Shown here in pieces: positions 2,749-20,142 of a stretch of 24,995 bases of DNA (within the stretch, counting starts at the first letter, position 1; each line of letters begins with the position of its first letter). The notes beneath the pieces were generated by a model that was given only the letters and a program-made list of their open reading frames with translations, had not been told where the DNA came from and made no database searches. The position numbers were made by a program, and so were the translations under genes. Source of the stretch: a virus. The stretch is from IMG/VR virus record IMGVR_UViG_3300033155_000852, positions 1-24,995 of that record. The stretch is one strand, 5' to 3'.

Positions 2749-5700
2749 ATGGCAATTACGGATCGGATCTTAAACGGGCTTCGCTCGGTCTTCGGGCGCG
2801 AGCGGGACGAGAGGCAAGCGGCGGTATCACCATCGTCAGAGATACAACCGTTGGCGACACCGTCATCTTATTCTTCTTACGACGGGGGTGAGTATGGTGG
2901 CTTGCTGGCAGTATCTCAGAATTTGCTTGCGCGATATGCTGATTATGAGTGCATAACAGGGGATACTCAGGTTATGACGCTTGAAGGTTCTCGTTCCATC
3001 GAGTCTCTGGCGCAGGCTTGTGAGATTGACCCTGGTTATCGCTTCCCTGTCTATACTTGGGATCATACTGAAAAACGTATAACAGTAGGTCTTGGCGAAG
3101 CTGCCCGCTTTATAAAAGTTGCCGAAGTTTACCTCGTGCGATTGGACGACGGCCAGTCTTTTCGCGCAACAGGCAATCACCAATGGATGCTTCGTAATGG
3201 CGAATATGTGGACACGACGGCGCTGTCGCCAGGTACTTCGTTGATGCCTTTATACCTATCTAAATGTAGTCATAAATATGTTCAGTATAGAGAGAATGAT
3301 GACTATCATAAAGGCGGTTTAACTCGGAAAGATAAGCAGCGTACAAGACCTGTTTCCCGTATGGTGGCAGAGTGGAAATTAGGGTGTAGAATTGCGCCTA
3401 AGACTTGGGTTACATTTATTGACGGTGATAGATCTAATTGCAACCCTGACAACCTTGAAATAACTACCGACAAGCAACCCGCCCGTAGTAAAAGCTGGGA
3501 GCCTTGGGTTAAAGCCATCATAAACGCCAAAGCTTTTATTAAAGAAAATAATAGGTTAGATAATAAAAATAGGCTTAATCATAAGGTTGTGTCAGTAGAA
3601 AAGGTAGGCAAGGAACCCGTATTTTGCCTAGAGGTGCCGGGAACGCATAACTACGCGGTCGGTAACGAGACTGGCGGTGTTTTCACGCATAACTCGATGG
3701 ATGACTACCCTGAGATTAATTGCTTTGCCGAAGGGTCTCTCGTTACTATCGTTAGAGATTCCATAATGACCGCCGTGCCTATAGAAAATATAGTTTCTGA
3801 GGGCATGGCTTTCACCACCATTGGCTATAACCGAAAAAGTCAAACGTTAGTTAGGGCGCAAGCGATAGACCCTCGACTATCAGGGAGAGACGCAGAAGTT
3901 CTGGCACTAAAGTTATCAAATGGGCGCACTCTTCGAGTTACTCCAGATCATAAGATTTTAGTCTACGGAAAAGGTTACGTTGAGGTTAAAGACCTAGTAA
4001 AAGGTGCTTGTCTAGTAGGAATGAGCGCGGGTTATGATCCTCTAAAAACTTCAGCCTTTATCTCTCCAAATAGCGGTAAGGTTGTATTACTAGAAGACCC
4101 AATACCTGATGGTAAATGTATGGTCTTCGACGTGACGACCAATACTCATAATTTGACTGTTGAGGGTGTAATCTGTCACAATTCGGCAAACCATTACTTC
4201 GCTTCCGATTCGACTCAGCCAAATGCGGATACTGGAAGGGTTGTATGGGTAGAATCGAAGGACGAGGCGATAAAGGATGCTTCAGATACGTTACTAAAAC
4301 GACGCCTTCGTTTAGATGACGAAATGTTTTCGATGGCCTATACCCTCGTAAAGTATGGAAACGATTTTGAAGAAGTGCTGGTTACAGATAATGGTGTGGT
4401 TGGGTTAAATTACCTTCCACCCGCTACTATGCGCCGAGTTGAGTTAGCGAACGGGTCTTTAGCTGGGTTCCTTCAGGATGTTACAGGCCAATTTTCAGAC
4501 GATATGCCGACTCTTAGACAGAAACTAGCTCAACCGCAAACGATGCCCGATACGACAGCGTTATTTGAGGATTGGCAGGTTGTCCACACGAGGCTTAGGA
4601 CTCGCCATAGACGATCACCATACGGTTATGGGGTTGCTGATGGGGCTAGGTGGATCTGGAAGCGGTTGATTCTTCTTGAGGACGCGATGTTGATGTATAA
4701 GTTGACTCGCGCCCCGGCTAGATTTGCATTCTATATAGATGTGACAGATATACCAGCATCTAGGGTTGAGTCGTTCCTCCAACGCGCCAAACGAGACTTG
4801 AAGAAGAAGAAGTATATAGACCCCAATACGGGTCGCCTCAACATGCGCTACAACCCTCTTGCAAGCGATGAAGACTTCTTTCTTCCGGTGCGCGACGGTA
4901 AAGAGCTTGCGCGAGTTGATATCCTTTCCGGCCCCGATTATCAGGCTATCGATGACGTAAATTATTTCCAGCGGAAACTACATGGTGTATTGAAGGTACC
5001 TAAATCCTGGCTCGGACAAGAGGAGGCAATACCCTCTCGTGCAATCCTCTCGAATGAGGATGTTAGGTCGGCACGAGTAACCCTTGGTATTCAAAATGTC
5101 ATGCGCCACGGTATTGAAAGGATTGTGAGAATAGATATGGCTGCTAGGGGGGTCTCAAACCCATGGCAACCAGAATTTGATGTCGTTATGACTATGCCCT
5201 CTGGTATATGGTCTTTAGCTCATATGGAACTAAAAAACGCACTCGCTGACTACGCTTCAAGAATAGAGCCGTGGGTATCAAAGGATTTTATTCGTAAGGA
5301 TCTTCTTAAACTTTCTGATACTCAAATCGGGGTTATTGATAAACAAAAAGAACGCGAGAAAGAAATCGAAATGCAAGCCCAGGGCGGTGGTGGTGGCGGC
5401 TTCGGTGCCGACATCGAAATTCGTGGAAATGCTTTGACTGAGGAACAGGTCAATAGTTTAAGTAAACCTGAGTTGAGTAAGGTTAAAGGGGAGATTAAGA
5501 GGTTAGAGGATCGGCTAGATAGAAGGTCTCGTGGGATGGAGGATCGTATTATGGAGCGTTTTGATCAGGCGTTGCAAAAAGATCCTGAATTTGCCAAGAG
5601 GCACCATGATCGATTGGCATTCTTTTCTTTACTGAACAATTCAATGAAGACAAACGGCACATCCCCTCCCGTGTCGAATTCGATGCCCATAAAAGGGTAG
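2749..5700 (+). CDS. Portal protein precursor with two inteins
   Basis: The 983-residue precursor encodes the head portal vertex protein, through which DNA is packaged and the neck attached. ATG 2749 follows AGAGGAGG. Extein 1 (residues 1-67) ends in ARYADYE. Nine residues (316-324, SMDDYPEIN) separate the two inteins. Extein 3 begins at S479 and continues with SANHYFASDSTQ, then the portal body. Removing residues 68-315 and 325-478 rebuilds ADYE-SMDDYPEIN-SANHYFA, the Y-x-x-M-D-x-Y-P-E-I segment typical of gp20-like portals, and leaves about 581 residues, a normal portal size. The C-terminal part has a six-glycine linker near QGGGGGGFG, then a charged helix and a Ser/Pro-rich tail. It heads the late gene cluster, before the prohead core and protease genes. 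Confidence 0.88.
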   Translation: MAITDRILNGLRSVFGRERDERQAAVSPSSEIQPLATPSSYSSYDGGEYGGLLAVSQNLLARYADYECITGDTQVMTLEGSRSIESLAQACEIDPGYRFPVYTWDHTEKRITVGLGEAARFIKVAEVYLVRLDDGQSFRATGNHQWMLRNGEYVDTTALSPGTSLMPLYLSKCSHKYVQYRENDDYHKGGLTRKDKQRTRPVSRMVAEWKLGCRIAPKTWVTFIDGDRSNCNPDNLEITTDKQPARSKSWEPWVKAIINAKAFIKENNRLDNKNRLNHKVVSVEKVGKEPVFCLEVPGTHNYAVGNETGGVFTHNSMDDYPEINCFAEGSLVTIVRDSIMTAVPIENIVSEGMAFTTIGYNRKSQTLVRAQAIDPRLSGRDAEVLALKLSNGRTLRVTPDHKILVYGKGYVEVKDLVKGACLVGMSAGYDPLKTSAFISPNSGKVVLLEDPIPDGKCMVFDVTTNTHNLTVEGVICHNSANHYFASDSTQPNADTGRVVWVESKDEAIKDASDTLLKRRLRLDDEMFSMAYTLVKYGNDFEEVLVTDNGVVGLNYLPPATMRRVELANGSLAGFLQDVTGQFSDDMPTLRQKLAQPQTMPDTTALFEDWQVVHTRLRTRHRRSPYGYGVADGARWIWKRLILLEDAMLMYKLTRAPARFAFYIDVTDIPASRVESFLQRAKRDLKKKKYIDPNTGRLNMRYNPLASDEDFFLPVRDGKELARVDILSGPDYQAIDDVNYFQRKLHGVLKVPKSWLGQEEAIPSRAILSNEDVRSARVTLGIQNVMRHGIERIVRIDMAARGVSNPWQPEFDVVMTMPSGIWSLAHMELKNALADYASRIEPWVSKDFIRKDLLKLSDTQIGVIDKQKEREKEIEMQAQGGGGGGFGADIEIRGNALTEEQVNSLSKPELSKVKGEIKRLEDRLDRRSRGMEDRIMERFDQALQKDPEFAKRHHDRLAFFSLLNNSMKTNGTSPPVSNSMPIKG
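2950..3693 (+). other. Intein 1 in portal (248 aa)
   Basis: The intein starts at Cys68 in the block A sequence CITGDTQVMTLEG and has block B with TGNH (residues 141-144). It ends with block F/G features: GTHNYAV, then VFTHN followed by Ser+1. These are the residues needed for class 1 splicing: Cys1, TxxH, penultimate His314, Asn315 and Ser+1. Residues about 170-275 form an insert with HNH endonuclease character. Nothing essential for splicing looks broken. Confidence 0.9.
3355..3468 (+). other. Decayed HNH endonuclease segment in intein 1
   Basis: Residues 203-240 follow the HNH_3-type pattern: SRMVAEWKLG, then WVTFIDGDRSNCNPDNLEI. In active members the segment reads roughly VxHIDGD with His before IDGD, and HR before the first helix. 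Here the positions are F and SR. The DGD, N and DNL positions remain. I infer loss of the catalytic His and probably of nuclease activity. An unusual but active variant is possible. Confidence 0.6.
3721..4182 (+). other. Intein 2 in portal (mini-intein, 154 aa)
   Basis: It starts at Cys325 (CFAEGSLVTIVRDS), has block B with TPDH at 398-401, block F with DVTTNTHNLTVEG, and ends VICHN followed by Ser479. It keeps Cys1, TxxH, His477, Asn478 and Ser+1. At 154 residues it has room only for the splicing fold and no endonuclease domain. It is clearly different from intein 1 in sequence, so the pair did not arise by recent duplication. Confidence 0.9.
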
Positions 5701-8007: not shown

Positions 8008-9771
8008 ATGAGCATAAAGACAGCAAATGACCGTCGTGTTTTAATTGAAAACATAGGCTTGGTATCTTTTAAGCTTGACGAAGAGACGCAACCAGGGCGT
8101 TTATTTGTTGAAGGTAAATGCGGTCAAGTAGACGTGCCGACAGCTAACGGTCGTACGTATCCTCGCTCTGTAATGGAAGTGCAGGTTGATAAGCTTAATA
8201 AACGTATTAAAGAAGGTTATCCCGTTTTGGGTTCCCTTGATCATCCTTCTGATGGCAAGTCAAAGTTAAGGGATGCCTCTCACTTGTTACACAAGGTATG
8301 GATAGAGAACAACGGGTCGATTCATCTTCGCGCCGAAGTTCTTGAAGAAACAGACAATGGGCAGGTTGCCGGTGCTGTTTTGCGCCGAGTAAAGAAAATT
8401 GGCATGTCTTCTCGTGGGATGGGTTCAACCCGAACAGGTCCAGACGGGAAAGAGATTGTTAATGAAGACTATCGGCTCGCAACTTTTGACTTTGTTGCTG
8501 ACCCTGCTGTTAATGACGCTTATCCGGCTATATTTGCCGAGGATGTAAATGGTACCGAGGTACCAGTCGAGGCTATTAAACAACAGTTTCCAGATCAAAT
8601 TAAAGCAATCGAAGAAGCTGCTCACCAAACGGCCCAGCGTGTTGTAACTTTGGATCTTGAATCTCAGCGCGAAGTCATGGTTCAAACCACTTTGGATGAG
8701 TATAAAGACCAGATCCATACAACTGTATACGAAGAGGCTAAGGCTGATCTTCGTGATGACTTTGGTGTGAAACTTGTTCGTGCTTTACAGGATCATCGCA
8801 AAGAGATTGAGGAAGAAATTCGTCAAGAGATTGCGGCAGATCCAACTACAGTGAGCGCAAAGCTAACACTTGAAAAGCTTGCTGAAATGCTTATTCCGTT
8901 CCGGCCTAAAGGTGACGCTAAATCCTTGCTTGCGGATAAGGAAGAAGAGATTGAAGGTCTTCGGGAACAAGTTCGTGAGGCTGGAGAGCTGGAATTTGAT
9001 TCTAAGGGTAAGCTTGTTGAGTTAGCTAAGAAGGCTCGCACCCTCGCTTTTGAGAATCATATTATGAAAGCGACTGTTGGCCGAGATGACGCCGAGTACA
9101 TTCGCGAAATGGTTGGTGATATTAGTACTGTCGAGACTGCTCAACAATTGCAAGATCGCCTAGACACGGCTCTTGAGAGCGCAGACGCTAATAAGGAAGA
9201 GGCGCAGAGGACTGTGAAAACAGAACGCGCCAGGGCTAACAAAGAGCTTAATAAATTTCAGGGACGCGAGAAAAAATTGCGTAATGAAGTTAAAGAGCGA
9301 AATGAGCGTATTGCTGAAAGCGTGGAACAGATTACTAATAAGTTCCAAGAGCGTTTTGAGACAATCGAGTCAACAAATCATGATCTGCGGGGCCAAAACG
9401 ACAAGCTTGTTGGAGCTTTGGAACGCGCAGAGCGGCTGATACATAGGTATGACGACCGTGAATATGCGTCTCGTCGTACTGTCGGCCACCCTGATCGTGA
9501 AGGAATCCTTGAAGACGTCCGTTCCGGGCGTGTGAAAGGAAAAGACGGAATTAATCGTTTAGCGAAGCGAAGAGACTTGCGGGGTGAGGAACCCGGTGGA
9601 GTCAATGAGCGAGTGAGACGGTCCATGAGCCGGGGGCGTGAATTCGCTCCGCAACATGAAACATTAACTGAATCTAACAATAGTCAACAAGGCAATATTG
9701 CAGACTTAGCAGAGTTTGGATTGCATGTTGACGATATTCTCCCCCTGAGCCGTGGCAAACAGGGGTTATAA
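8008..9771 (+). CDS. Prohead protease (T4 gp21-like, S80/U9) fused to coiled-coil scaffold
   Basis: Residues about 25-180 carry the T4 gp21-type prohead protease signature: TANGRTYP at 45-52, LGSLDHPS with the probable catalytic His79, IGMSSRGMG with the probable catalytic Ser134/135, and FDFVADPA with Asp161/165. The remaining 400 residues are highly charged, helical and coiled-coil rich, ending in a disordered Arg/Gly/Ser stretch. This looks like a scaffold domain, the role played by the separate gp22 in T4. No separate scaffold gene lies before the capsid gene. The enzyme would cleave core and capsid proteins after (L/I)xE inside the prohead. ATG 8008 follows GGAGAA at 7999-8004. Confidence 0.88.
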   Translation: MSIKTANDRRVLIENIGLVSFKLDEETQPGRLFVEGKCGQVDVPTANGRTYPRSVMEVQVDKLNKRIKEGYPVLGSLDHPSDGKSKLRDASHLLHKVWIENNGSIHLRAEVLEETDNGQVAGAVLRRVKKIGMSSRGMGSTRTGPDGKEIVNEDYRLATFDFVADPAVNDAYPAIFAEDVNGTEVPVEAIKQQFPDQIKAIEEAAHQTAQRVVTLDLESQREVMVQTTLDEYKDQIHTTVYEEAKADLRDDFGVKLVRALQDHRKEIEEEIRQEIAADPTTVSAKLTLEKLAEMLIPFRPKGDAKSLLADKEEEIEGLREQVREAGELEFDSKGKLVELAKKARTLAFENHIMKATVGRDDAEYIREMVGDISTVETAQQLQDRLDTALESADANKEEAQRTVKTERARANKELNKFQGREKKLRNEVKERNERIAESVEQITNKFQERFETIESTNHDLRGQNDKLVGALERAERLIHRYDDREYASRRTVGHPDREGILEDVRSGRVKGKDGINRLAKRRDLRGEEPGGVNERVRRSMSRGREFAPQHETLTESNNSQQGNIADLAEFGLHVDDILPLSRGKQGL

Positions 9772-9790
9772 GCAAGATAAGGAGTTTATT

Positions 9791-11230
9791 ATGTCAAGCT
9801 TGCTGGAAGCCCGTGACATGCTATCCGTTCGTGCAGATGGTAGTCCCATGACTAACAAGAATTTTGTTAGTCAACTCGTGACTAAATGGGGTCGTTTACT
9901 AGAAGGTATCGAAGATGAATTGCCTAGCTTTTCACCTTCAGGTCAAGGCGACTACCTTAAAGCCATGACCGCGTTTATGCTTGAATCTCAAATGAATCAT
10001 CTTCGGTCGTTATCTGAAGAGACTCGTGCGCTTCAAGTTGGTCCTTTTATGAAGTTTGTCTTCCCTGTTATCCGCAGGGCGGCTGTGAGACTGGTTGCTA
10101 CCAGTATCGCTTCAGTTCAACCAATGGTCGGACCAGTTGGGGGTGTTGCTTTCTACCGTCCTCGCTATACCGATAACAAAGGCCAAGTTGTTGCCGGTTC
10201 TGAAATCAATAAAACCTTCAACAAATGGTATTCATCTGACTTTGTTGATGGTGAAATGTTTGCTACTGGCGACGGTGTAACCACTAACTTCACGCCAACA
10301 TTGCAATGGCGTCCAATAACAGCGGCGTCTGTCAGTATTCGCTCTGGAACTCCAACCGGAACATTGCTTGCAACAGACAATGGTGCTGGCGGTGTCATTA
10401 ACCCAGCCGGTGCTGTTATCGGAACCATCAACTACACGACAGGGGCTGCAACCTTTACATTTGCTGCCGCTCCCGCCGCTGCTACTCAGTTGTTCCTTGT
10501 TTATCGTTACAATAACGAAGCTAATTCTCAGATTCCTCAGATTCAGTTGGATATTGAGTTAAAAGAGATTCGCGCCGAATCCCGTAAGCTCAAAACTCTT
10601 GCATCTGTCGAGGCAAGCGACGACCTTCGCGCTCTTTGGGGCCGCGATATTGACGCTGACCTTGTGGCAACAATGGCCGATGAGCTTACAAGCGAAATCG
10701 ACCGTGAAATCCTTGGAACAGCGTTTAATGCTGTCGAGCCTGAAGCAAGGGTTACTTGGGATCGTGCGACACCAAGCGGAATTTCTGATCCTGAACACCT
10801 TCGTTCGCTTGCCATTCAAATGTCTCGCGCTTCTCAGTTTATTCATCGTCGGACTCAACGTGGCCGCGCAAACTGGGCTGTTACTTCTTCTGAAGTTGCT
10901 GCTTTGCTTGAAACAATGCAGAGCTTCCAGGCAGTAGACCCAGGGCATACCTATCAAGGTGGTGTTGGTCGCGCAGGAGTTTTGAATCGTCAGTGGATGA
11001 TTTATATTGATCCTCAGTTCCCCGCTGATAAGATCCTTATGGGTTATCAAGGCTCGTCGATCTTGGATACCGGATTGATCTATTCGCCATACATTCCTAT
11101 GGAAATTACTCCGGCGTTTATTGATCCTAATGACTTCACCATCCGCAGAGCAGTGCGTACTCGTCATAAAGTGACCCTGACTCGCCCCGAATTCTTTGCT
11201 ATGGTTGACATTAACAATCTCACAAACTGA
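9791..11230 (+). CDS. Major capsid protein (T4 gp23-like)
   Basis: This 479-residue shell protein has gp23-type features in its second half, including INRE-like EIDREIL, SRASQFIHRRTQRGRANW, and a C-terminal YSPYIPMEITPAFIDPNDF region. The start is ATG 9791 with AAGGAG six bases upstream, not the upstream GTG 9752 inside the protease gene. The N-terminal portion has candidate prohead protease sites LLE-A at residue 6 and LLE-G at 38. Gp23 loses 65 N-terminal residues in T4, so trimming is expected. Residues about 155-242 form a Gly/Thr/Ala-rich beta insertion that also occurs in the sheath protein and probably faces outward. A strong terminator follows the stop codon. Confidence 0.92.
   Translation: MSSLLEARDMLSVRADGSPMTNKNFVSQLVTKWGRLLEGIEDELPSFSPSGQGDYLKAMTAFMLESQMNHLRSLSEETRALQVGPFMKFVFPVIRRAAVRLVATSIASVQPMVGPVGGVAFYRPRYTDNKGQVVAGSEINKTFNKWYSSDFVDGEMFATGDGVTTNFTPTLQWRPITAASVSIRSGTPTGTLLATDNGAGGVINPAGAVIGTINYTTGAATFTFAAAPAAATQLFLVYRYNNEANSQIPQIQLDIELKEIRAESRKLKTLASVEASDDLRALWGRDIDADLVATMADELTSEIDREILGTAFNAVEPEARVTWDRATPSGISDPEHLRSLAIQMSRASQFIHRRTQRGRANWAVTSSEVAALLETMQSFQAVDPGHTYQGGVGRAGVLNRQWMIYIDPQFPADKILMGYQGSSILDTGLIYSPYIPMEITPAFIDPNDFTIRRAVRTRHKVTLTRPEFFAMVDINNLTN
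10286..10513 (+). repeat. Beta-rich insertion in capsid protein, shared with sheath
   Basis: Residues 166-241 of the capsid protein carry WRPITAASVSIRSG, ATDNGAGG, GTINYTTGAATFTF and an LVYRYN ending. The same order occurs twice in the tail sheath. It looks like a small Ig-like or decoration-type module inserted in a loop. Confidence 0.6.
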
Positions 11231-11252: not shown

Positions 11253-11293
11253 AAAAAAGGAGGCGTAGCGGCAATCGTCGTTGCGCCTTTTTT
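11253..11293 (+). terminator. Strong terminator after capsid gene
   Basis: AAAAAAGG at 11253-11260 pairs with CCTTTTTT at 11286-11293. Inner pairing includes GGC with GCC and GCAA with TTGC around TCGTCG. It lies 22 bases after the capsid stop and ends in six T residues. The A-rich 5' arm would let it work on both strands. It probably sets capsid mRNA apart from the lower-expressed genes downstream. Confidence 0.85.
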
Positions 11294-11309: not shown

Positions 11310-11831
11310 ATGATGAGACAACCCTTACAACTGGTTGAATCTGCTGATAGAGATATGCGAAGGCGACAGCGGGCGGTAATAATGGACCCTGAAAACCGTC
11401 GTCTGCGGATTAAAAAACAAAGAGAGATGGACCGTCTCATGGGCCGTCACCGGAGCATCAAGGACTTGGGGTTAAATCTTCGAGCTAACGCAATATTGAG
11501 TGCTGCTAACATTGACACCATTGGGGAACTGGTTGCGAAAAGCAGTGGGGAGTTGCTAAAGCTGAGACAAATGGGTGAGTTTACTCTTAACACAGTCAAG
11601 GAGAGATTGGCTAAGTTTGGGTTGTCCATACGTGAAGGTGTTGAAGAAAACGACGACTTGAATGAAGCTACAGGGATACGTGGTTTAACGCCGTTATTGC
11701 AGGCGCGTCAACAGTTGGTGTCTATGCAAGGGTATCTAACAGACGTTGGCGACAAGAAGAAGCTATCTGCTGTAAATAAGGCACTGATGTGCGTATCCAG
11801 AGCAATAAGAGTACTGCGGTTGGGGGGATAA
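11310..11831 (+). CDS. RNA polymerase alpha-CTD-like protein with capsid-targeting-like N-terminus
   Basis: Residues about 50-107 align without gaps to the bacterial RNA polymerase alpha C-terminal domain: IKDLGLNLRANAIL corresponds to the first helix with R265, IDTIGELV to IHYIGDLV, then ELLK, MGEFTLNTVKERLAKFGLS. R58 matches R265 and G89 matches G296. The positions of N268, C269 and K298 are changed to A, I and F, so UP-element DNA contacts may be reduced. The N-terminus RQPLQLVE-SA resembles the leaders of the cargo proteins downstream and ends at a candidate prohead-protease site. Residues 14-48 are Arg-rich, and the C-terminal 60 residues are helical. GAGGGT at 11298-11303 serves ATG 11310, or ATG 11313. 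I infer a virion-carried protein that meets host transcription. A purely structural role for this helix-hairpin fold is the alternative. Confidence 0.75.
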   Translation: MMRQPLQLVESADRDMRRRQRAVIMDPENRRLRIKKQREMDRLMGRHRSIKDLGLNLRANAILSAANIDTIGELVAKSSGELLKLRQMGEFTLNTVKERLAKFGLSIREGVEENDDLNEATGIRGLTPLLQARQQLVSMQGYLTDVGDKKKLSAVNKALMCVSRAIRVLRLGG

Positions 11832-12602: not shown

Positions 12603-14138
12603 GTGAGACGGCTATATTTGAAATTATTAGAAGATCAACGCTTTAAGCAGGAGACCGGCAAAAAGTTTCCTTCTTTGATGTCATTACCTATTGTTAAGAA
12701 AAGCGTCAAAGACCCGTTTTCTTTGGTTCATTTCTCCTCTCTTCCAAATAAATTGGGTATCAATCCTAATAGTGGGTTTAATACTCCTATGGGTGTTTAC
12801 TCATATATCTTGACACCCGCTGTTTATAAAGACATCACTCAAGACCGCCGATCAGAATTGTCGGAATTTGGTACGGATAGGGCATACATACATCTATCGT
12901 CAGTTAAGCCTAAGTATCGAAAGAATATTGTGGTTATCAACACGAAAGGCGTCGGAAAGGGCTACACCAAGAAGAGGTACTGGAAGGATCTTAGAGCATT
13001 AGCTAAGGTGGCTCTGGAGGGAAAGGTAATTCGTCGTCATATTGGTGTTGAGCGTAAAGTTAAAGCTGTCGCCGAACGAATGGATTACTTGAGTGCGGGT
13101 TCTTTCATTCGTAGCTGGTTTGGAAAGCTTTGGTATATAACTAAAAAACTATCTGTCAACATAACTAATTGGTCTAAGATCCTTAGATCTATTGGTATTT
13201 ATGGGGTTTTTGATTATGGGGCTGGATTGATACATACCTCTGAAATGCAACAGGCTGTGTTACTCAGGGGCGACTTGATTAATAGAATAGGATCAGGCGT
13301 TAATCCTTTGTTTGCACCGTCAAGCAGCCTAACAGATATAAGGGGTTTTAATTCTTTCTTAAAAGAACTTATCCGCGTGGTAAATCATAATAATAAGAGA
13401 TTAAAGAGACAAGATTTTAAGCTATACCACGAAATAGACCCTGCTAATGCTAGTCTTTCCCCACATGGGTTGAGGGACCAAATATTAGTCCAATCACTTA
13501 ATCCTAAGAGGAATCTGTTCACGGTAGATATATCTGTAGAAAAAGTTCATAAAAAGGATGTATTGCTATCTTTAATCTACAAATCTGCCACAGGAATTAT
13601 TGGAAATAAAGAAACAATATGGGCCAAGAGTTATCAACAAATGACCCGAAAATTGTATAAATTTATCAGGCCGTTTATTGACCAAGGTATTGAGTTTGTG
13701 ACCAAGCAACATGCTGTCATTGACTTCATGAATCTAGCCGAGAAGAGGGCAAGAAAACTCCTCATAACTGGAGGTGGGGGTGGAAGTGTTTCGTGGGATT
13801 CTGGCGGTAAAAACCTTTCTTATTTGAATGTTGAGCTTGCAGGTCTCAATATTATTGTTGAATTCACCATAAAGCGCGTAGGGTCGAATATAAGGATGAG
13901 CTATACAGCTAAAAAGAACAAGTCCCACTTCGGTAAGGTTCAGAAGGATCTGAACCCTATTTCAGATATAGTAACATCGCTTTTGCGGGATAATATGCCA
14001 GACAATATTGATTTAGAATCAGGGTATAAGGAAGCTGTTAATGTCTTCATCGGCGGTTTTAAGAAGTTTTTACGCGAATTACCGACTGATCAAGGGTATC
14101 CGATGGGCATAGGGACGGTTCAACCAGAAATTGAATAG
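12603..14138 (+). CDS. Unknown virion-cluster protein with H...Y motif (511 aa)
   Basis: The start is GTG 12603 with GGTTGAG upstream. The N-terminus RRLYLKLLE-D ends in a candidate (L/I)xE cleavage site. Residues about 38-105 contain LVHFSSLPNKLGINP, a short gap, TPMGVYSYIL, then DRAYIHLSS. I recall this HFS...KLGINP...TPxGxYxY pattern from unannotated proteins of many large phages. The His and Tyr strand layout is compatible with an ADP-ribosyltransferase-like fold of the H-Y-E class, but I cannot identify the Glu and hold this as a weak hypothesis. The middle is basic, a five-glycine linker sits near residue 393, and a beta-rich domain follows. Base composition is more AT-rich than the capsid gene. 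Confidence 0.55.
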   Translation: MRRLYLKLLEDQRFKQETGKKFPSLMSLPIVKKSVKDPFSLVHFSSLPNKLGINPNSGFNTPMGVYSYILTPAVYKDITQDRRSELSEFGTDRAYIHLSSVKPKYRKNIVVINTKGVGKGYTKKRYWKDLRALAKVALEGKVIRRHIGVERKVKAVAERMDYLSAGSFIRSWFGKLWYITKKLSVNITNWSKILRSIGIYGVFDYGAGLIHTSEMQQAVLLRGDLINRIGSGVNPLFAPSSSLTDIRGFNSFLKELIRVVNHNNKRLKRQDFKLYHEIDPANASLSPHGLRDQILVQSLNPKRNLFTVDISVEKVHKKDVLLSLIYKSATGIIGNKETIWAKSYQQMTRKLYKFIRPFIDQGIEFVTKQHAVIDFMNLAEKRARKLLITGGGGGSVSWDSGGKNLSYLNVELAGLNIIVEFTIKRVGSNIRMSYTAKKNKSHFGKVQKDLNPISDIVTSLLRDNMPDNIDLESGYKEAVNVFIGGFKKFLRELPTDQGYPMGIGTVQPEIE

Positions 14139-14191: not shown

Positions 14192-16453
14192 ATGAGCCAA
14201 CCACATGTAGGTATCTTTCGCGGCGGATCTTTCATGCAATTTGAAGATCTGATGGCCCTAACCGAAGAACCAGTTCTTATCTTTGAGAGTTTTGATGATC
14301 TTATGGAAGGCGACCCTTTTGATATTTACAAAGGGAATAAAGATGCCGTGGCCGCTGCCCTTAAAGGTGACTTGGATGGATACCTTGTTGCATTAGGTAT
14401 GGACTCCGAGAGGTTAAAGCGGTGGGATACCGCCTTCATGAAAGGCCAAATGCAAAATGTTGCTGATTTTGCTAAGGCTGATAACAAAGAAGGTATCGCG
14501 GCACCATCCAAATCGGCTGTTACCCCGCTAAAAAAGGTCAGCAAAAAATCTAAGGCTGCACCTCGCTACAAAGGCCCGATAAAACGTGGTTTTGGCTACG
14601 TGTCTCTTGCCAAGTCTTTGAAACAACTTAGAGGCAAGAAACTCTACAAAATTATTGATCCCGGTATTCTTGGTGTTATTGCTAAGAAAATCGACAAAGC
14701 TCGTCCGGCGAAAATGGGCAAAAGAGGAGCGAGTAAAACTCGTAAAGTAGGGATGTCATCGGGGGTTGCTAAGAAGATAGCAATGTGGGTTCACACAAAG
14801 CTACTTAAGCGTTATCCGTTCTCCGAGAAGAAAGCAGGAGCGCCCGAAGATCGCGATTCGCGAATCATGAATAAGGCTTTGTATACTCGCGGGCTTTCTT
14901 TAATACTTAAGGATCTTCTTTCTAAGGTAGGGGGCCAAAACGCCGAGGAACGAAAAGCTGAACGCTTAAAAGCTAAATCTCAATTCGATGATTTTAAGAA
15001 GAAGCTTCGTCTGGTCGAATGGGCAATACTTCGGGATCTGGAATATCTCGGCGAAAGCACCTATCGAGAATTTATGATTCTTATTAATGACTGCGAAGCA
15101 TTGGTGGAATCAGCAATTAATGGACTCAACTCCCTCGAAGAATGCAGGGACGACGGCGCAGTTGATCACCTTGAAGAGTCTTTTGATTTTGTAATGTTAG
15201 ATATAAGAGAGCCGGTTCATCTTAAGATTGCTAAGGAGCTTGAAGATAAATACTTTGGTGATGTTCATTTTAACCCAGAGAAGACGAGTGATCTGGATTT
15301 TAGAAAGTGGTTATCAAAAATCCCCAATAATAATGTTTCTGATCAAGGGAGTGACCACAAATTCTTAATGGCCGAGAGAGCGCGTCGAACTAAGATTTGG
15401 ATGAAGTCACCAAAGTATAAGAAGATGAAGGCTAAAAATGCTGCTGGCCTGAAAGCAGCGAATCGTAAGAAGAGACGTAAAAAAGAGGAATCAGTCTGGA
15501 TCGACGATGCAGGGCAGATTGAAGAAAGTTTACCTTTCGAGAAACCTCAATACGCAGACGATTTTGCGGCTGGGTTTAAGAGGGGTAAAGCGGCTGTCGC
15601 TCGTAATCCTAACGTTTCTCTTACAGATGTAGAGCGAAGCTATAAGCGGGTCTCCAATAAGCACGGCAGTTGGTGGAAGAATGGTTACAGTGCGGCTATT
15701 GATATAGCTAACGGAGCTTCTGCGATGCCCGGAGCAAAGATTGCGAAGAAAATGGGTCTCGTTGAGTCTGTTTGGATCGACGATGACGACCGTGAATACT
15801 ACGGCGAAGACGCGCCGGAAGATGTGATAGACGAGGTTCGCCCAGACTTATCAACAGGCGCGAAGAGCAAGTATGTCTTCCCCAATCGCGAGGCATGGCC
15901 TATTGGTGATCGTAAGCACGGGCGCATTGCGCTTAAATACATCGTCGCAGGCAGGGGTAAGGCAAAAGATTGGGCAAAGGTTTTAGAGGCTGTTCTTGAT
16001 AGATACCCAGACATGAAAGTTGACCACGCCGATCTTGTTAAAAAGGCGAAGTCAATGTCTGAGGGTATGTATGCCGATGAGGATTACTTCAATATCGGCG
16101 AAGACCGCGTCAATATTGGTTATGCTCTTGGTGAGGGGCTGACCGCTCAGTCTTTGGATAATGTAAATAGTCTTCTTAACGAGAGACTTAATCCAACGCC
16201 CCAGGAACGGCCAATCTTTGAATCTAATGACTATCACAAGCTTGGAGCGCAGCTTCAGCACTGGGCGCAGGGGGATGCCGATCCGATCTTTCGCGCCGGA
16301 GCAAGATTGTTTTCAGGTCGAAAGCCGTGGCGTCGGGATGTCTGCGATGCAATCGAGTCGTTACAGAAGATTATGATGACTCCGCAATACGCCGATCACG
16401 AGGTCGAGTTACGTGGCATTGTTTCCAGGTTACGTAATGTTTGTCTCGGTTAG
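14192..16453 (+). CDS. Large unknown virion-cluster protein with internal repeats (753 aa)
   Basis: ATG 14192 follows AGGAGA. No family is recognised. The protein alternates acidic segments with basic Lys-rich blocks (residues about 105-220 and 395-432). ESVWIDD occurs at 433-439 and again at 525-531. IFES occurs at 30-33 and 675-678. Candidate (L/I)xE sites include IFE-S at 32, LME-G at 39, LVE-S at 306, IEE-S at 445, LVE-S at 525 and IFE-S at 677. Segments such as FAAGFKRGKAAVARNP, with GSWWKNGYSAA some 30 residues on, look like small helical modules. Repeated cleavable joints between basic modules suggest an internal head polyprotein trimmed by the prohead protease. This is inference, since LxE triplets are also common by chance in helices. 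Confidence 0.6.
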   Translation: MSQPHVGIFRGGSFMQFEDLMALTEEPVLIFESFDDLMEGDPFDIYKGNKDAVAAALKGDLDGYLVALGMDSERLKRWDTAFMKGQMQNVADFAKADNKEGIAAPSKSAVTPLKKVSKKSKAAPRYKGPIKRGFGYVSLAKSLKQLRGKKLYKIIDPGILGVIAKKIDKARPAKMGKRGASKTRKVGMSSGVAKKIAMWVHTKLLKRYPFSEKKAGAPEDRDSRIMNKALYTRGLSLILKDLLSKVGGQNAEERKAERLKAKSQFDDFKKKLRLVEWAILRDLEYLGESTYREFMILINDCEALVESAINGLNSLEECRDDGAVDHLEESFDFVMLDIREPVHLKIAKELEDKYFGDVHFNPEKTSDLDFRKWLSKIPNNNVSDQGSDHKFLMAERARRTKIWMKSPKYKKMKAKNAAGLKAANRKKRRKKEESVWIDDAGQIEESLPFEKPQYADDFAAGFKRGKAAVARNPNVSLTDVERSYKRVSNKHGSWWKNGYSAAIDIANGASAMPGAKIAKKMGLVESVWIDDDDREYYGEDAPEDVIDEVRPDLSTGAKSKYVFPNREAWPIGDRKHGRIALKYIVAGRGKAKDWAKVLEAVLDRYPDMKVDHADLVKKAKSMSEGMYADEDYFNIGEDRVNIGYALGEGLTAQSLDNVNSLLNERLNPTPQERPIFESNDYHKLGAQLQHWAQGDADPIFRAGARLFSGRKPWRRDVCDAIESLQKIMMTPQYADHEVELRGIVSRLRNVCLG

Positions 16454-16462
16454 GAGATTTTT

Positions 16463-17008
16463 ATGCTTTATAGATCACCGCTTTATCTTCTTGAAGCGGA
16501 AAAAGGTAGCGAGATTGATCAGGCGTTTGATAACACACCGTCTGGGTATCAGGGTAAAGTGCTTGCTATGCGAAATCCTAGTAGGTCTTCATCAGGCTCG
16601 ACATTTCTTAGGAAACAGACGTGGTCTGCTCTCAAGGGGGCAGGTTGGAAGCCTTATAGACACCCGAATATAAAATCCCCGGCAAAAGGTTACATTGCAA
16701 AAGTGCCTGGGCGCATGGGTCTAGTCAAGACAAGTTCTCTTCCTGCAAATGCTAAGGTTAAACTTGTTGACCCTAAAAAGACGGGACAGGTATCCGCAGA
16801 GGTTAGCGGCGTCCCTGGTGAGAAGGTTAATTTCACTGTTGCTTTAGTAGGGCCAGGAGACGGGGGTAAGCCTATGATATGGACCTTGCATCCTGGTGAT
16901 CCTATTGGGCCAAGTGAAGTGGCGGCAAAAGGTAAGGTTGGTCAGGTTATTACTCCTAAGCAGGCGAAAAAACTTGGTTTTGACTACGCTAAGGTTTCAG
17001 GTAGTTAA
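16463..17008 (+). CDS. Candidate capsid-targeted protein, RSPLYLLE leader (181 aa)
   Basis: TAGGAGA precedes ATG 16463. The N-terminus MLYRSPLYLLE-AEKG shares its first ten positions with the next gene and ends at a candidate prohead-protease site, LLE-A. A basic Ser/Gly-rich linker follows. The C-terminal 70 residues form a compact-looking domain containing NFTVALVGPGDGGKP, MIWTLHPGDPIGPS and TPKQAKKLGFDYAKV. I recognise no named family, but the TLHPGDP plus KLGFDYAKV layout looks like a real small domain rather than disorder. Together with the leader it suggests a packaged effector or enzyme. That is inference. Confidence 0.65.
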   Translation: MLYRSPLYLLEAEKGSEIDQAFDNTPSGYQGKVLAMRNPSRSSSGSTFLRKQTWSALKGAGWKPYRHPNIKSPAKGYIAKVPGRMGLVKTSSLPANAKVKLVDPKKTGQVSAEVSGVPGEKVNFTVALVGPGDGGKPMIWTLHPGDPIGPSEVAAKGKVGQVITPKQAKKLGFDYAKVSGS

Positions 17009-17017
17009 GGTAACTAT

Positions 17018-17584
17018 ATGTTTTATAGATCACCACTGTATTTGATAGATGAAGGGCTAATGTCCTTAATTTCTAAAGGGATTAAGGCCGCTCGCTCTAA
17101 AGTTAAGACAAAACCGTCAAAACCTTCAAAACCCCCTGGTTGTCCAGAAGGCGAGAAGATGGTTTTTGGAAAATGTAGGGTTACAGGAGCCGGTAAAAAG
17201 AGGAGTGCAGTTAAAGTCCCGTCCCCAGAAAGTTTTGTTAAAAACATGGTCAAGATGCTCGGCAAAGCAGGGAAAGGTGTAAAAGGTAAAAACGAGGATC
17301 ATATTGCTTATTATCAGGCAAATGCTAGTAGAGCTATTAACAAGTACTTTGATTCACCGCAATTCGAGGCTCTGGCTAAGTCTAAAACACTATCAGAGAA
17401 GGTTGTGTGGGACGGCATCGAGAAGGGTCTTACTGTTTATATTAAAAATGGTAATATCGAAGATGTAATCGCAGGGGCTTATGCTGATTATGAAATTGAA
17501 GGAGTTATCGCTAAGTTTGTTACTGAATTTGCGAAGGCTGTTGTTAAAGCAATCAATATGATTGGCGGGTTTGCGCCGGAGTAG
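17018..17584 (+). CDS. Candidate capsid-targeted protein, RSPLYLIDE leader (188 aa)
   Basis: ATG 17018 follows TAAGGTAA, which overlaps the preceding stop. The N-terminus MFYRSPLYLIDE-GLM matches the leader of the gene before it, and the DNA of the two leaders shares the 13-base run TTTATAGATCACC. The bodies are unrelated. Residues about 20-70 are Lys/Pro/Ser-rich with CPEGEKMVFGKC, a possible two-cysteine loop. The C-terminal half is helical and amphipathic (EKVVWDGIEKGLTVYI, VIAKFVTEFAKAVVKAI) and could contact membrane or protein. Function is unknown. Confidence 0.65.
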   Translation: MFYRSPLYLIDEGLMSLISKGIKAARSKVKTKPSKPSKPPGCPEGEKMVFGKCRVTGAGKKRSAVKVPSPESFVKNMVKMLGKAGKGVKGKNEDHIAYYQANASRAINKYFDSPQFEALAKSKTLSEKVVWDGIEKGLTVYIKNGNIEDVIAGAYADYEIEGVIAKFVTEFAKAVVKAINMIGGFAPE

Positions 17585-19012: not shown

Positions 19013-19669
19013 ATGAGTCATAATCAAGTTACTGGTTTCCCTGATACCTTTTTTGGTCCTAACGATAAATCTTATATTGATAGGATAAACAAGGACGTCA
19101 CGCGCTTGCGTGGCGTTGATTGTTTGTACTATCCTCTTTTGGATCAGACGCGCAGGATTGATAGCGACCGACCTGTTATTTATAAGCCGACGCTTGATGT
19201 TTTTGATCGCAAGCGTCATTCGGGCGACCCTCTCTACGGCGAACCATCTATCGTGCGCGACCGTCTTAGCTCAGTTAAACGTAGTGTTGAACCAGATTGG
19301 GCTTATGGTGATCCTATTACTATCCGAGGGATAGCTATGGACCCTTCTTCGGACGAACAGCAGGACGAGCGCGGAACTATGTATAATCGCGGGTTGATGT
19401 TTGATCTTGCGCGAATAGTGGCCGAAGAAGAGGGTATTGCTTCGTATTTAGCGAAGCCGATAAGACCAAGACAAGGCGACGTGATACAATTTACAAGTCA
19501 GCTTGATGGATTTTTTGAAGCAGAGGATGTGTCAAGGGATGAGTCTAGGTTTGGCGGGACAGGTTTTTTTGCTGTCTATAAAATTACCCTTTACCAAACC
19601 TCAAAATACATCGCTTCTCGGAAGGTATTACCCTCGCCGGGAGCAGTTGTACCGGAGGATGTAGCATGA
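19013..19669 (+). CDS. Neck protein, gp14-like by pattern (218 aa)
   Basis: ATG 19013 follows AGGGTGA. I prefer it to GTG 19004, which lies within that ribosome site. Features typical of phage neck or connector proteins are YIDRINKDVTRLRG, LDVFDRKRHSGDPLYGEPS, and the C-terminal RPRQGDVIQFTSQLDGFFEA, with GFFAVYKITLYQTS beyond. GD-V/L-I followed by F-E and an aromatic beta strand is the pattern of T4-like gp14 neck proteins. Its place between head and tail genes agrees. The assignment rests on pattern memory, not an alignment. Confidence 0.55.
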   Translation: MSHNQVTGFPDTFFGPNDKSYIDRINKDVTRLRGVDCLYYPLLDQTRRIDSDRPVIYKPTLDVFDRKRHSGDPLYGEPSIVRDRLSSVKRSVEPDWAYGDPITIRGIAMDPSSDEQQDERGTMYNRGLMFDLARIVAEEEGIASYLAKPIRPRQGDVIQFTSQLDGFFEAEDVSRDESRFGGTGFFAVYKITLYQTSKYIASRKVLPSPGAVVPEDVA

Positions 19670-20142
19670 GCTTAGAACGATCACCACTACAGATTTATAT
19701 TGAAGGTAAAGGCCGCAAGTCTCAGCGGAGACGGCAAGTAAAGAGAAGTCGGAAAAGACAAGTCAGGAAGGTACCAAAGCGTCGGAAGTCTACAACGCCA
19801 AAAAGAAAACTTAGTCAAGATGAGAAAAACAAGAGAATTTCTAAAGGTGTTCATAAATCGCGTTTTAAGATATCTCTGGGATTAAAGAAACCAGGAGCGC
19901 AAAGAAAACGCGCAAAAACGCATAAAGAAAATCTCCGAAAAAATAAGGTAGAGGTTGGCGGTAAGTTGGTTGCTAAGTCGCAAGCAAAAAGGGAACGGAA
20001 AAAAGTTGACCGTCGCCAAAGAAAGTCGCGCACAGGAGCTTATACTAATCGTCGAGGGATAAAGCAATCTTCACGAAGAGAGGCTTATAATATAATTGTC
20101 GAGGCGTTTCAGGCGTCGAATAGTTTATCAACGCCTTGGTAA
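19666..20142 (+). CDS. Extremely basic protein, candidate packaged DNA-binding protein (158 aa)
   Basis: The start overlaps the previous stop (ATGA), with GGAGG upstream. The N-terminus LERSPLQIYIE-GKG shares RSPL with the two leader proteins upstream and has a possible cleavage site after Glu. The body is dominated by Lys and Arg (for example RKSQRRRQVKRSRKRQVRK), with little hydrophobic content until the final helix YNIIVEAFQA. The composition recalls protamine- or histone-tail-like proteins and T4 internal proteins that bind packaged DNA. It is followed by a 98-base gap with a possible promoter. Confidence 0.7.
   Translation: MSLERSPLQIYIEGKGRKSQRRRQVKRSRKRQVRKVPKRRKSTTPKRKLSQDEKNKRISKGVHKSRFKISLGLKKPGAQRKRAKTHKENLRKNKVEVGGKLVAKSQAKRERKKVDRRQRKSRTGAYTNRRGIKQSSRREAYNIIVEAFQASNSLSTPW

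Follow-up and report, generated by a model that had tools for sequence, protein, structure and literature searches.

The gene at positions 11310 to 11831 of a viral metagenome record encodes a protein in which an RNA polymerase alpha-CTD-like domain follows a putative capsid-targeting leader. Judging from this leader, the protein is likely packaged in the virion. Because the leader is the same as in several likely virion-cargo proteins, the head of the phage may contain the alpha-domain, which would then enter the host along with the DNA. Our preferred reading of the locus, to which we assign a probability of about 0.42, is that of a packaged internal head protein which is injected and acts on host transcription via protein contacts.

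The head gene cluster

The window, that is, the whole 24,995-base stretch of the viral metagenome record that was analysed, contains a T4-type module consisting of portal, S77 protease, gp23-type capsid, neck, sheath and tube genes. Its source is a T4-related and probably large phage. The alpha-CTD-like gene belongs to the late head cluster; it follows the capsid gene, precedes a neck gene (phrog_211) and has the ribosome-site-like sequence GAGGGT upstream. The features of this part of the cluster are as follows:

8008..9771, + strand: T4-type prohead protease (Peptidase_S77) with a long C-terminal extension (PF03420, E=9.5e-17; phrog_207, 5.1e-35)
9752..11230, + strand: major capsid protein, gp23-like, with propeptide site LLE-G; start probably ATG 9791 (PF07068, 1.1e-59)
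11256..11293, + strand: strong intrinsic-terminator-like hairpin directly 3' of the capsid gene and before the 11310 gene (17-pair stem, -24.8 kcal/mol, z -4.8)
11310..11831, + strand: alpha-CTD-like protein gene (open reading frame, 173 aa; PF03118, E=4.8e-11; identical in contigs L001-L003)
11457..11630, + strand: alpha-CTD-like domain, residues 50-107 (gap-free RpoA alignment; fold match)
11685..11822, + strand: C-terminal helical hairpin, residues 126-171 (AF2 with and without alignment)

A sigma-70 promoter scan of the region of the 11310 gene gave no excess over shuffled sequences, and no Rfam families were found in the window.

Some other genes have unusual features of their own. The T4-type portal gene (window positions 2749-5700) apparently contains two inteins about nine extein residues apart, as splicing-domain matches occur in two stretches, one of them with an HNH endonuclease. 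Positions 14192-16453 encode a basic protein of 753 aa without a family assignment; it has at least six L/I-x-E-[AGS] sites and may be a core protein that is cut in pieces. In L035, two similar tail-tube-like genes are arranged in tandem (314-835 and 862-1338), the second of which has an exact internal repeat (TEGNWPYPHKVPLTKA, present twice).

An alpha-CTD-like domain without an alpha-NTD

In the Pfam profile search, PF03118 matched residues 45-101 of the protein with E=4.8e-11 and 42.7 bits, compared with a cut-off of 23.8, and no further domain was found. Among PDB sequences the top match is Francisella RNAP alpha-2 (E=1.3e-8), and the other hits listed are likewise RNAP alpha chains. An AF2 model whose input alignment contained Chlamydiota RpoA tails reached a pLDDT of about 75-84 for residues 51-100. 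With Foldseek, this model superposed on solved alpha-CTDs with an rmsd of 0.5-0.8 A over 60 residues (target TM 0.86-0.88); since RpoA relatives in the input lean the model towards the alpha-CTD fold, model and sequence match are not independent lines of evidence. When AF2 was run on the single sequence, the pLDDT in the alpha-CTD region was about 34-50 and the domain was not confidently modelled, and the evidence for the fold is thus the alignment-based model together with the profile matches. On these grounds we assign the protein to the alpha-CTD family PF03118. The likeness had been claimed in a first-pass annotation of this DNA, and both the Pfam match and the RpoA-informed model bear it out.

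In both AF2 runs the domain is flanked by two N-terminal helices and the C-terminal hairpin, for which blastp returned no relative in the related contigs. The net charge of the protein is +12. The 173-aa reading frame has no alpha-NTD, and RpoA models align by their C-terminal part only, far below their cut-offs. Lacking this N-terminal dimerisation and assembly domain, the protein is not an RNA polymerase alpha subunit and cannot join RNAP as one.

Residues kept and lost

We aligned residues 50-107 without gaps to Salmonella RpoA, which served as a stand-in for that of E. coli. R265 (R58 in the phage protein) and G296 (G89) are kept, while N268, C269 and K298 are replaced by A61, I62 and F91, exactly as the first-pass annotation had stated. 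Further replacements are N294 to Q87, K297 to E90, S299 to T92, E302 to T95 and E261 to G54. Of the seven residues of the 265 determinant (R265, N268, C269, G296, K298, S299 and E302), R265 and G296 alone are thus retained. We then compared ten alpha-CTDs, five of them free-standing or unplaced and five from cellular or apparently cellular rpoA genes. R265 and G296 are the only invariant positions among the ten, and N268, N294 and S299 are kept in the nine other sequences, cellular and phage alike, and replaced only in the 11310-11831 protein.

The DNA-contact, sigma-facing and activator surfaces of the E. coli alpha-CTD are well established. Because the losses of N268, N294 and S299 and the exchanges K297 to E and K298 to F strip most of the DNA-contact face, binding of UP elements, which had been proposed from the first reading of the sequence, is unlikely, and by its residues the domain does not look like a functional UP-element-binding alpha-CTD. 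The sigma-facing surface is partly kept: D259 is retained as D52, and D258 and E261 are changed to K51 and G54. On the activator surface, V287 is replaced by G80.

A shared N-terminal leader on basic proteins

The first ten residues of the protein end in a T4-like site, LVE-S, at residue 10. A motif scan of N-termini found similar leaders on three proteins encoded further downstream, so that the following leader regions and leader-bearing genes can be listed:

11310..11339, + strand: putative capsid-targeting leader MMRQPLQLVE of the alpha-CTD-like protein, residues 1-10, predicted cut before Ser11 (shared motif)
16463..17008, + strand: basic protein, leader MLYRSPLYLLE followed by A
17018..17584, + strand: basic protein, leader MFYRSPLYLIDE followed by G
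19666..20142, + strand: very basic protein (net +45), leader MSLERSPLQIYIE followed by G

The N-terminal motif R.PL.[LIVM].{0,3}E is thus present in 4 of the 26 window proteins. With residue composition held, the chance is about 1e-4 per protein and about 1e-12 for the four, a figure that is optimistic in that the motif was shaped on the same sequences. Related contigs provide an independent test. Three of them (G005, G006 and G011), whose capsid proteins are 61-65% identical, have at least six leader N-termini, each on a basic protein: ERTPLLLER (twice) and RRTPLLIEG in G005, ERTPLLLER in G006, and ERTPLLLER and NRTPLLLET in G011. All ten leader-bearing proteins, four in the window and six in the three related contigs, are basic. 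Unrelated phage and bacterial DNA (168 kb, 605 reading frames) yielded no N-terminus with such a leader. One further hit, RRAPLLLE in LR756511, was rejected as a chance match, as it lies antisense to the capsid gene there and is followed by a stop.

The first ten residues of T4 IPIII suffice for capsid targeting, and the T4 protease gp21 cleaves after L/I-x-E (PMC9026906). The short N-terminal leader ending in L/I-x-E therefore agrees, as far as the sequence goes, with what is expected of a T4-type capsid-targeted internal protein. The same phage encodes a cognate prohead protease with a predicted L/I-x-E specificity: LLE-G is found at the expected propeptide position in all capsid proteins compared, most of which also carry an earlier I/V/L-x-E-S or LLE-A. 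A packaging-type leader resembling those of genes further downstream had been noticed before; with its recurrence in three related contigs, the S77 protease in the window and the conserved LLE-G site, the support is stronger than was claimed then.

Distribution and other candidate cargo

The alpha-CTD-like gene is known from one phage species and is identical in all four contigs of it, which differ at other sites. When diverged relatives were sought in IMG/VR with the gene itself, the neck gene, the genes at 12603 and 19004 and the tail sheath, the gene turned up in contigs of the same species and nowhere else. Ten diverse alpha-CTDs, taken as the basis of a profile search, had no sufficiently conserved stretch in common. 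Relatives whose capsid protein is 61-73% identical likewise lack the gene in their contigs, which are fragments. The human fecal records MT839913 and MT836419, hits in the phage collection and candidates for phage alpha-CTD relatives, were discarded, as they hold full-length bacterial rpoA genes (322 and 327 codons). The best genome matches are to Chlamydiota rpoA at 40-41%, but the peptide ANIDTIGE had served as the seed of this search, and the matches are therefore no evidence of a chlamydial host.

In the relatives, the stretch that follows the capsid gene appears to vary in content and to code for enzyme-like putative cargo. In G005, a minus-strand gene (59882-60442, across L038/L039) codes for a protein that bears the leader (MNLRRTPLLIEG) and has two H-x-T motifs; this protein matches the 2H-type phosphodiesterase family PF08302 below the cut-off (E=2.2e-4) and is a candidate for an injected enzyme acting on RNA or cyclic nucleotides. 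Relatives also have a gene for a tRNA CCA-adding enzyme within their capsid cluster (L007 12391-14079 by family match, L008 14478-15956 by similar sequence). In G005 it is found two genes behind the capsid gene (phrog_2244, E=1.3e-64) and its product has the N-terminus MYQAHTLLILED; the similar protein of G006 begins with MFTPRTLLILEQ. These N-termini are leader-like (HTLLILED, PRTLLILEQ), and the enzyme might be virion cargo. Because of the 2H phosphodiesterase-like protein and the leader-like CCA-adding enzyme, the leader may mark functional cargo.

Two other observations concern the relatives. Proteins downstream of the capsid gene in L036-L042 and L009 share a second motif, S-L-[FHY]-[DA]-[RQ]-[VI]-[FV], at their ends and inside (e.g. 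SLFDRIVEG, SLHDRIFEG), which might be a further signal for targeting or cleavage. In G005, a 74-kb phage contig, 22 tRNA genes and a tmRNA gene are predicted (L039 3634-13028).

Proposed mode of action and its alternatives

The preferred reading can be broken down into steps of decreasing certainty. By its sequence, the protein has an alpha-CTD-like domain placed between a basic N-terminal helical region and the C-terminal helical hairpin. Its first ten residues are, as the sequences strongly suggest, a capsid-targeting leader common to other probable cargo of the clade. This leader would put the protein in the prohead core, where the S77 protease would cut after LVE and leave Ser11 as the mature start. 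T4 Alt and the IP proteins are ejected (PMC9026906, PMC2988021), and by analogy the alpha-CTD-like protein would be ejected together with the DNA. In the last and least certain step the domain might, through protein contacts, stand in for the host alpha-CTD or compete with it for sigma, activators or other partners, by which host promoters would be weakened or phage early promoters favoured. On the boldest reading, which we consider less likely than not, a virion-delivered decoy alpha-CTD, not an enzyme like Alt, would alter host transcription before any phage gene is read.

The main rival is a packaged architectural protein, which would have the same leader but would stay in the head or coat the DNA. 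Its helix-hairpin-helix domain and basic tails would help to order the prohead core or the DNA inside the head, and it would play no part in host transcription. The charge of the protein and of its leader-bearing neighbours, all basic and one at +45, would fit such a role, as would the DNA-binding nature of the alpha-CTD fold in a protein without other domains; T4 IPIII, too, affects head assembly (PMC9026906). However, the DNA-contact face is lost, and the gene is absent, as far as the fragments show, from relatives that build similar heads. We regard this role as somewhat unlikely.

Less probable still is an unpackaged, intracellular late regulator of host or phage transcription, for which the likeness of the leader would be coincidental or have another role. 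Other phages do have free-standing alpha-CTD proteins without such a leader, and the terminator-like hairpin splits the gene from the capsid gene and permits separate regulation. Against this, a leader with L-x-E at residue 10 is rarely expected by chance in a single protein, and it recurs in the basic proteins of relatives.

The protein could also be a packaged counter-defence decoy: its domain would resemble that of a defence protein, for instance the alpha-CTD-like domain carried by the BREX kinase PglW (PMC12839542), and would disarm the defence after injection. T4 IPI, which counters a restriction enzyme, would be a precedent (PMC9026906), and the profile match to PglW has an E-value of 3e-6. 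This match is unspecific, though, since cellular alpha-CTDs score PglW about equally (up to 22-23 bits), and the phage protein reaches 47-50 bits with the best RpoA model versus 18-23 bits with PglW. We therefore rejected a mimic closer to PglW than to RpoA, and hold the decoy of a defence protein to be very improbable. Hardly any weight is given to a captured, functionless and drifting fragment of host rpoA, to which the occurrence in one phage species and the replaced determinant residues might point, since the 173-codon frame is intact and free of stops and frameshifts, includes a leader and an extra C-terminal hairpin, shows no mutation in four contigs that differ elsewhere, and keeps at 40% identity a fold core that drift would have destroyed.

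If the preferred reading, an injected head protein acting on host transcription, is true, it would be a case of host takeover by mimicry at injection, and the protein would be a natural tool for finding out which contacts of the alpha-CTD are important. As a tag, the leader makes it possible to list the probable cargo of an uncultured T4-like phage clade by sequence alone and to pick candidate effectors, e.g. the 2H phosphodiesterase-like protein.

Comparison with known systems

With the bacterial RNAP alpha-CTD (PF03118) the phage protein shares the fold, the gap-free alignment and the equivalents of R265 and G296, but it is without an alpha-NTD, most of its DNA contacts are replaced, and a leader and a C-terminal hairpin have been added. 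PglW of type 2 BREX has an alpha-CTD-like domain as well, with a weak match, but is a kinase-nuclease of 1400-1600 residues and matches no more specifically than it does any alpha-CTD.

T4 IPI-IPIII and Alt have a ten-residue N-terminal leader ending in L/I-x-E as well, with T4-type prohead protease and capsid genes nearby in the phage, and the IPs are also small and basic. They differ in that the leader described here follows the pattern R-x-P-L-x-L and that an alpha-CTD-like domain makes up the putative cargo. Alt is injected and modifies Arg265 of alpha (PMC2988021), and Rac of phiKMV-like phages leads to cleavage of the alpha subunit (PMC7552054), whereas the 11310-11831 protein copies the alpha domain itself.

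Free-standing alpha-CTDs are annotated in Bacillus phage Goe8, Microbacterium phage Mazun (gp26), Ruegeria phage V16, uncultured Caudovirales and Rhodococcus phage Finch, and several named BFVD entries exist. Among the open-access papers searched, none dealt with their function, which is no proof that none exists. Having an alpha-CTD and no alpha-NTD, the 11310-11831 protein fits this class by sequence: its PF03118-type domain, like theirs, is not part of an RNAP subunit. However, the three that were compared keep N268, N294 and S299, and no such leader was seen in the loci examined. Goe8 has two alpha-CTD copies near both genome ends, whereas the gene described here is located in the head cluster. 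Thus, while free-standing phage alpha-CTDs as such were already known from annotation, an alpha-CTD as apparent capsid cargo is new.
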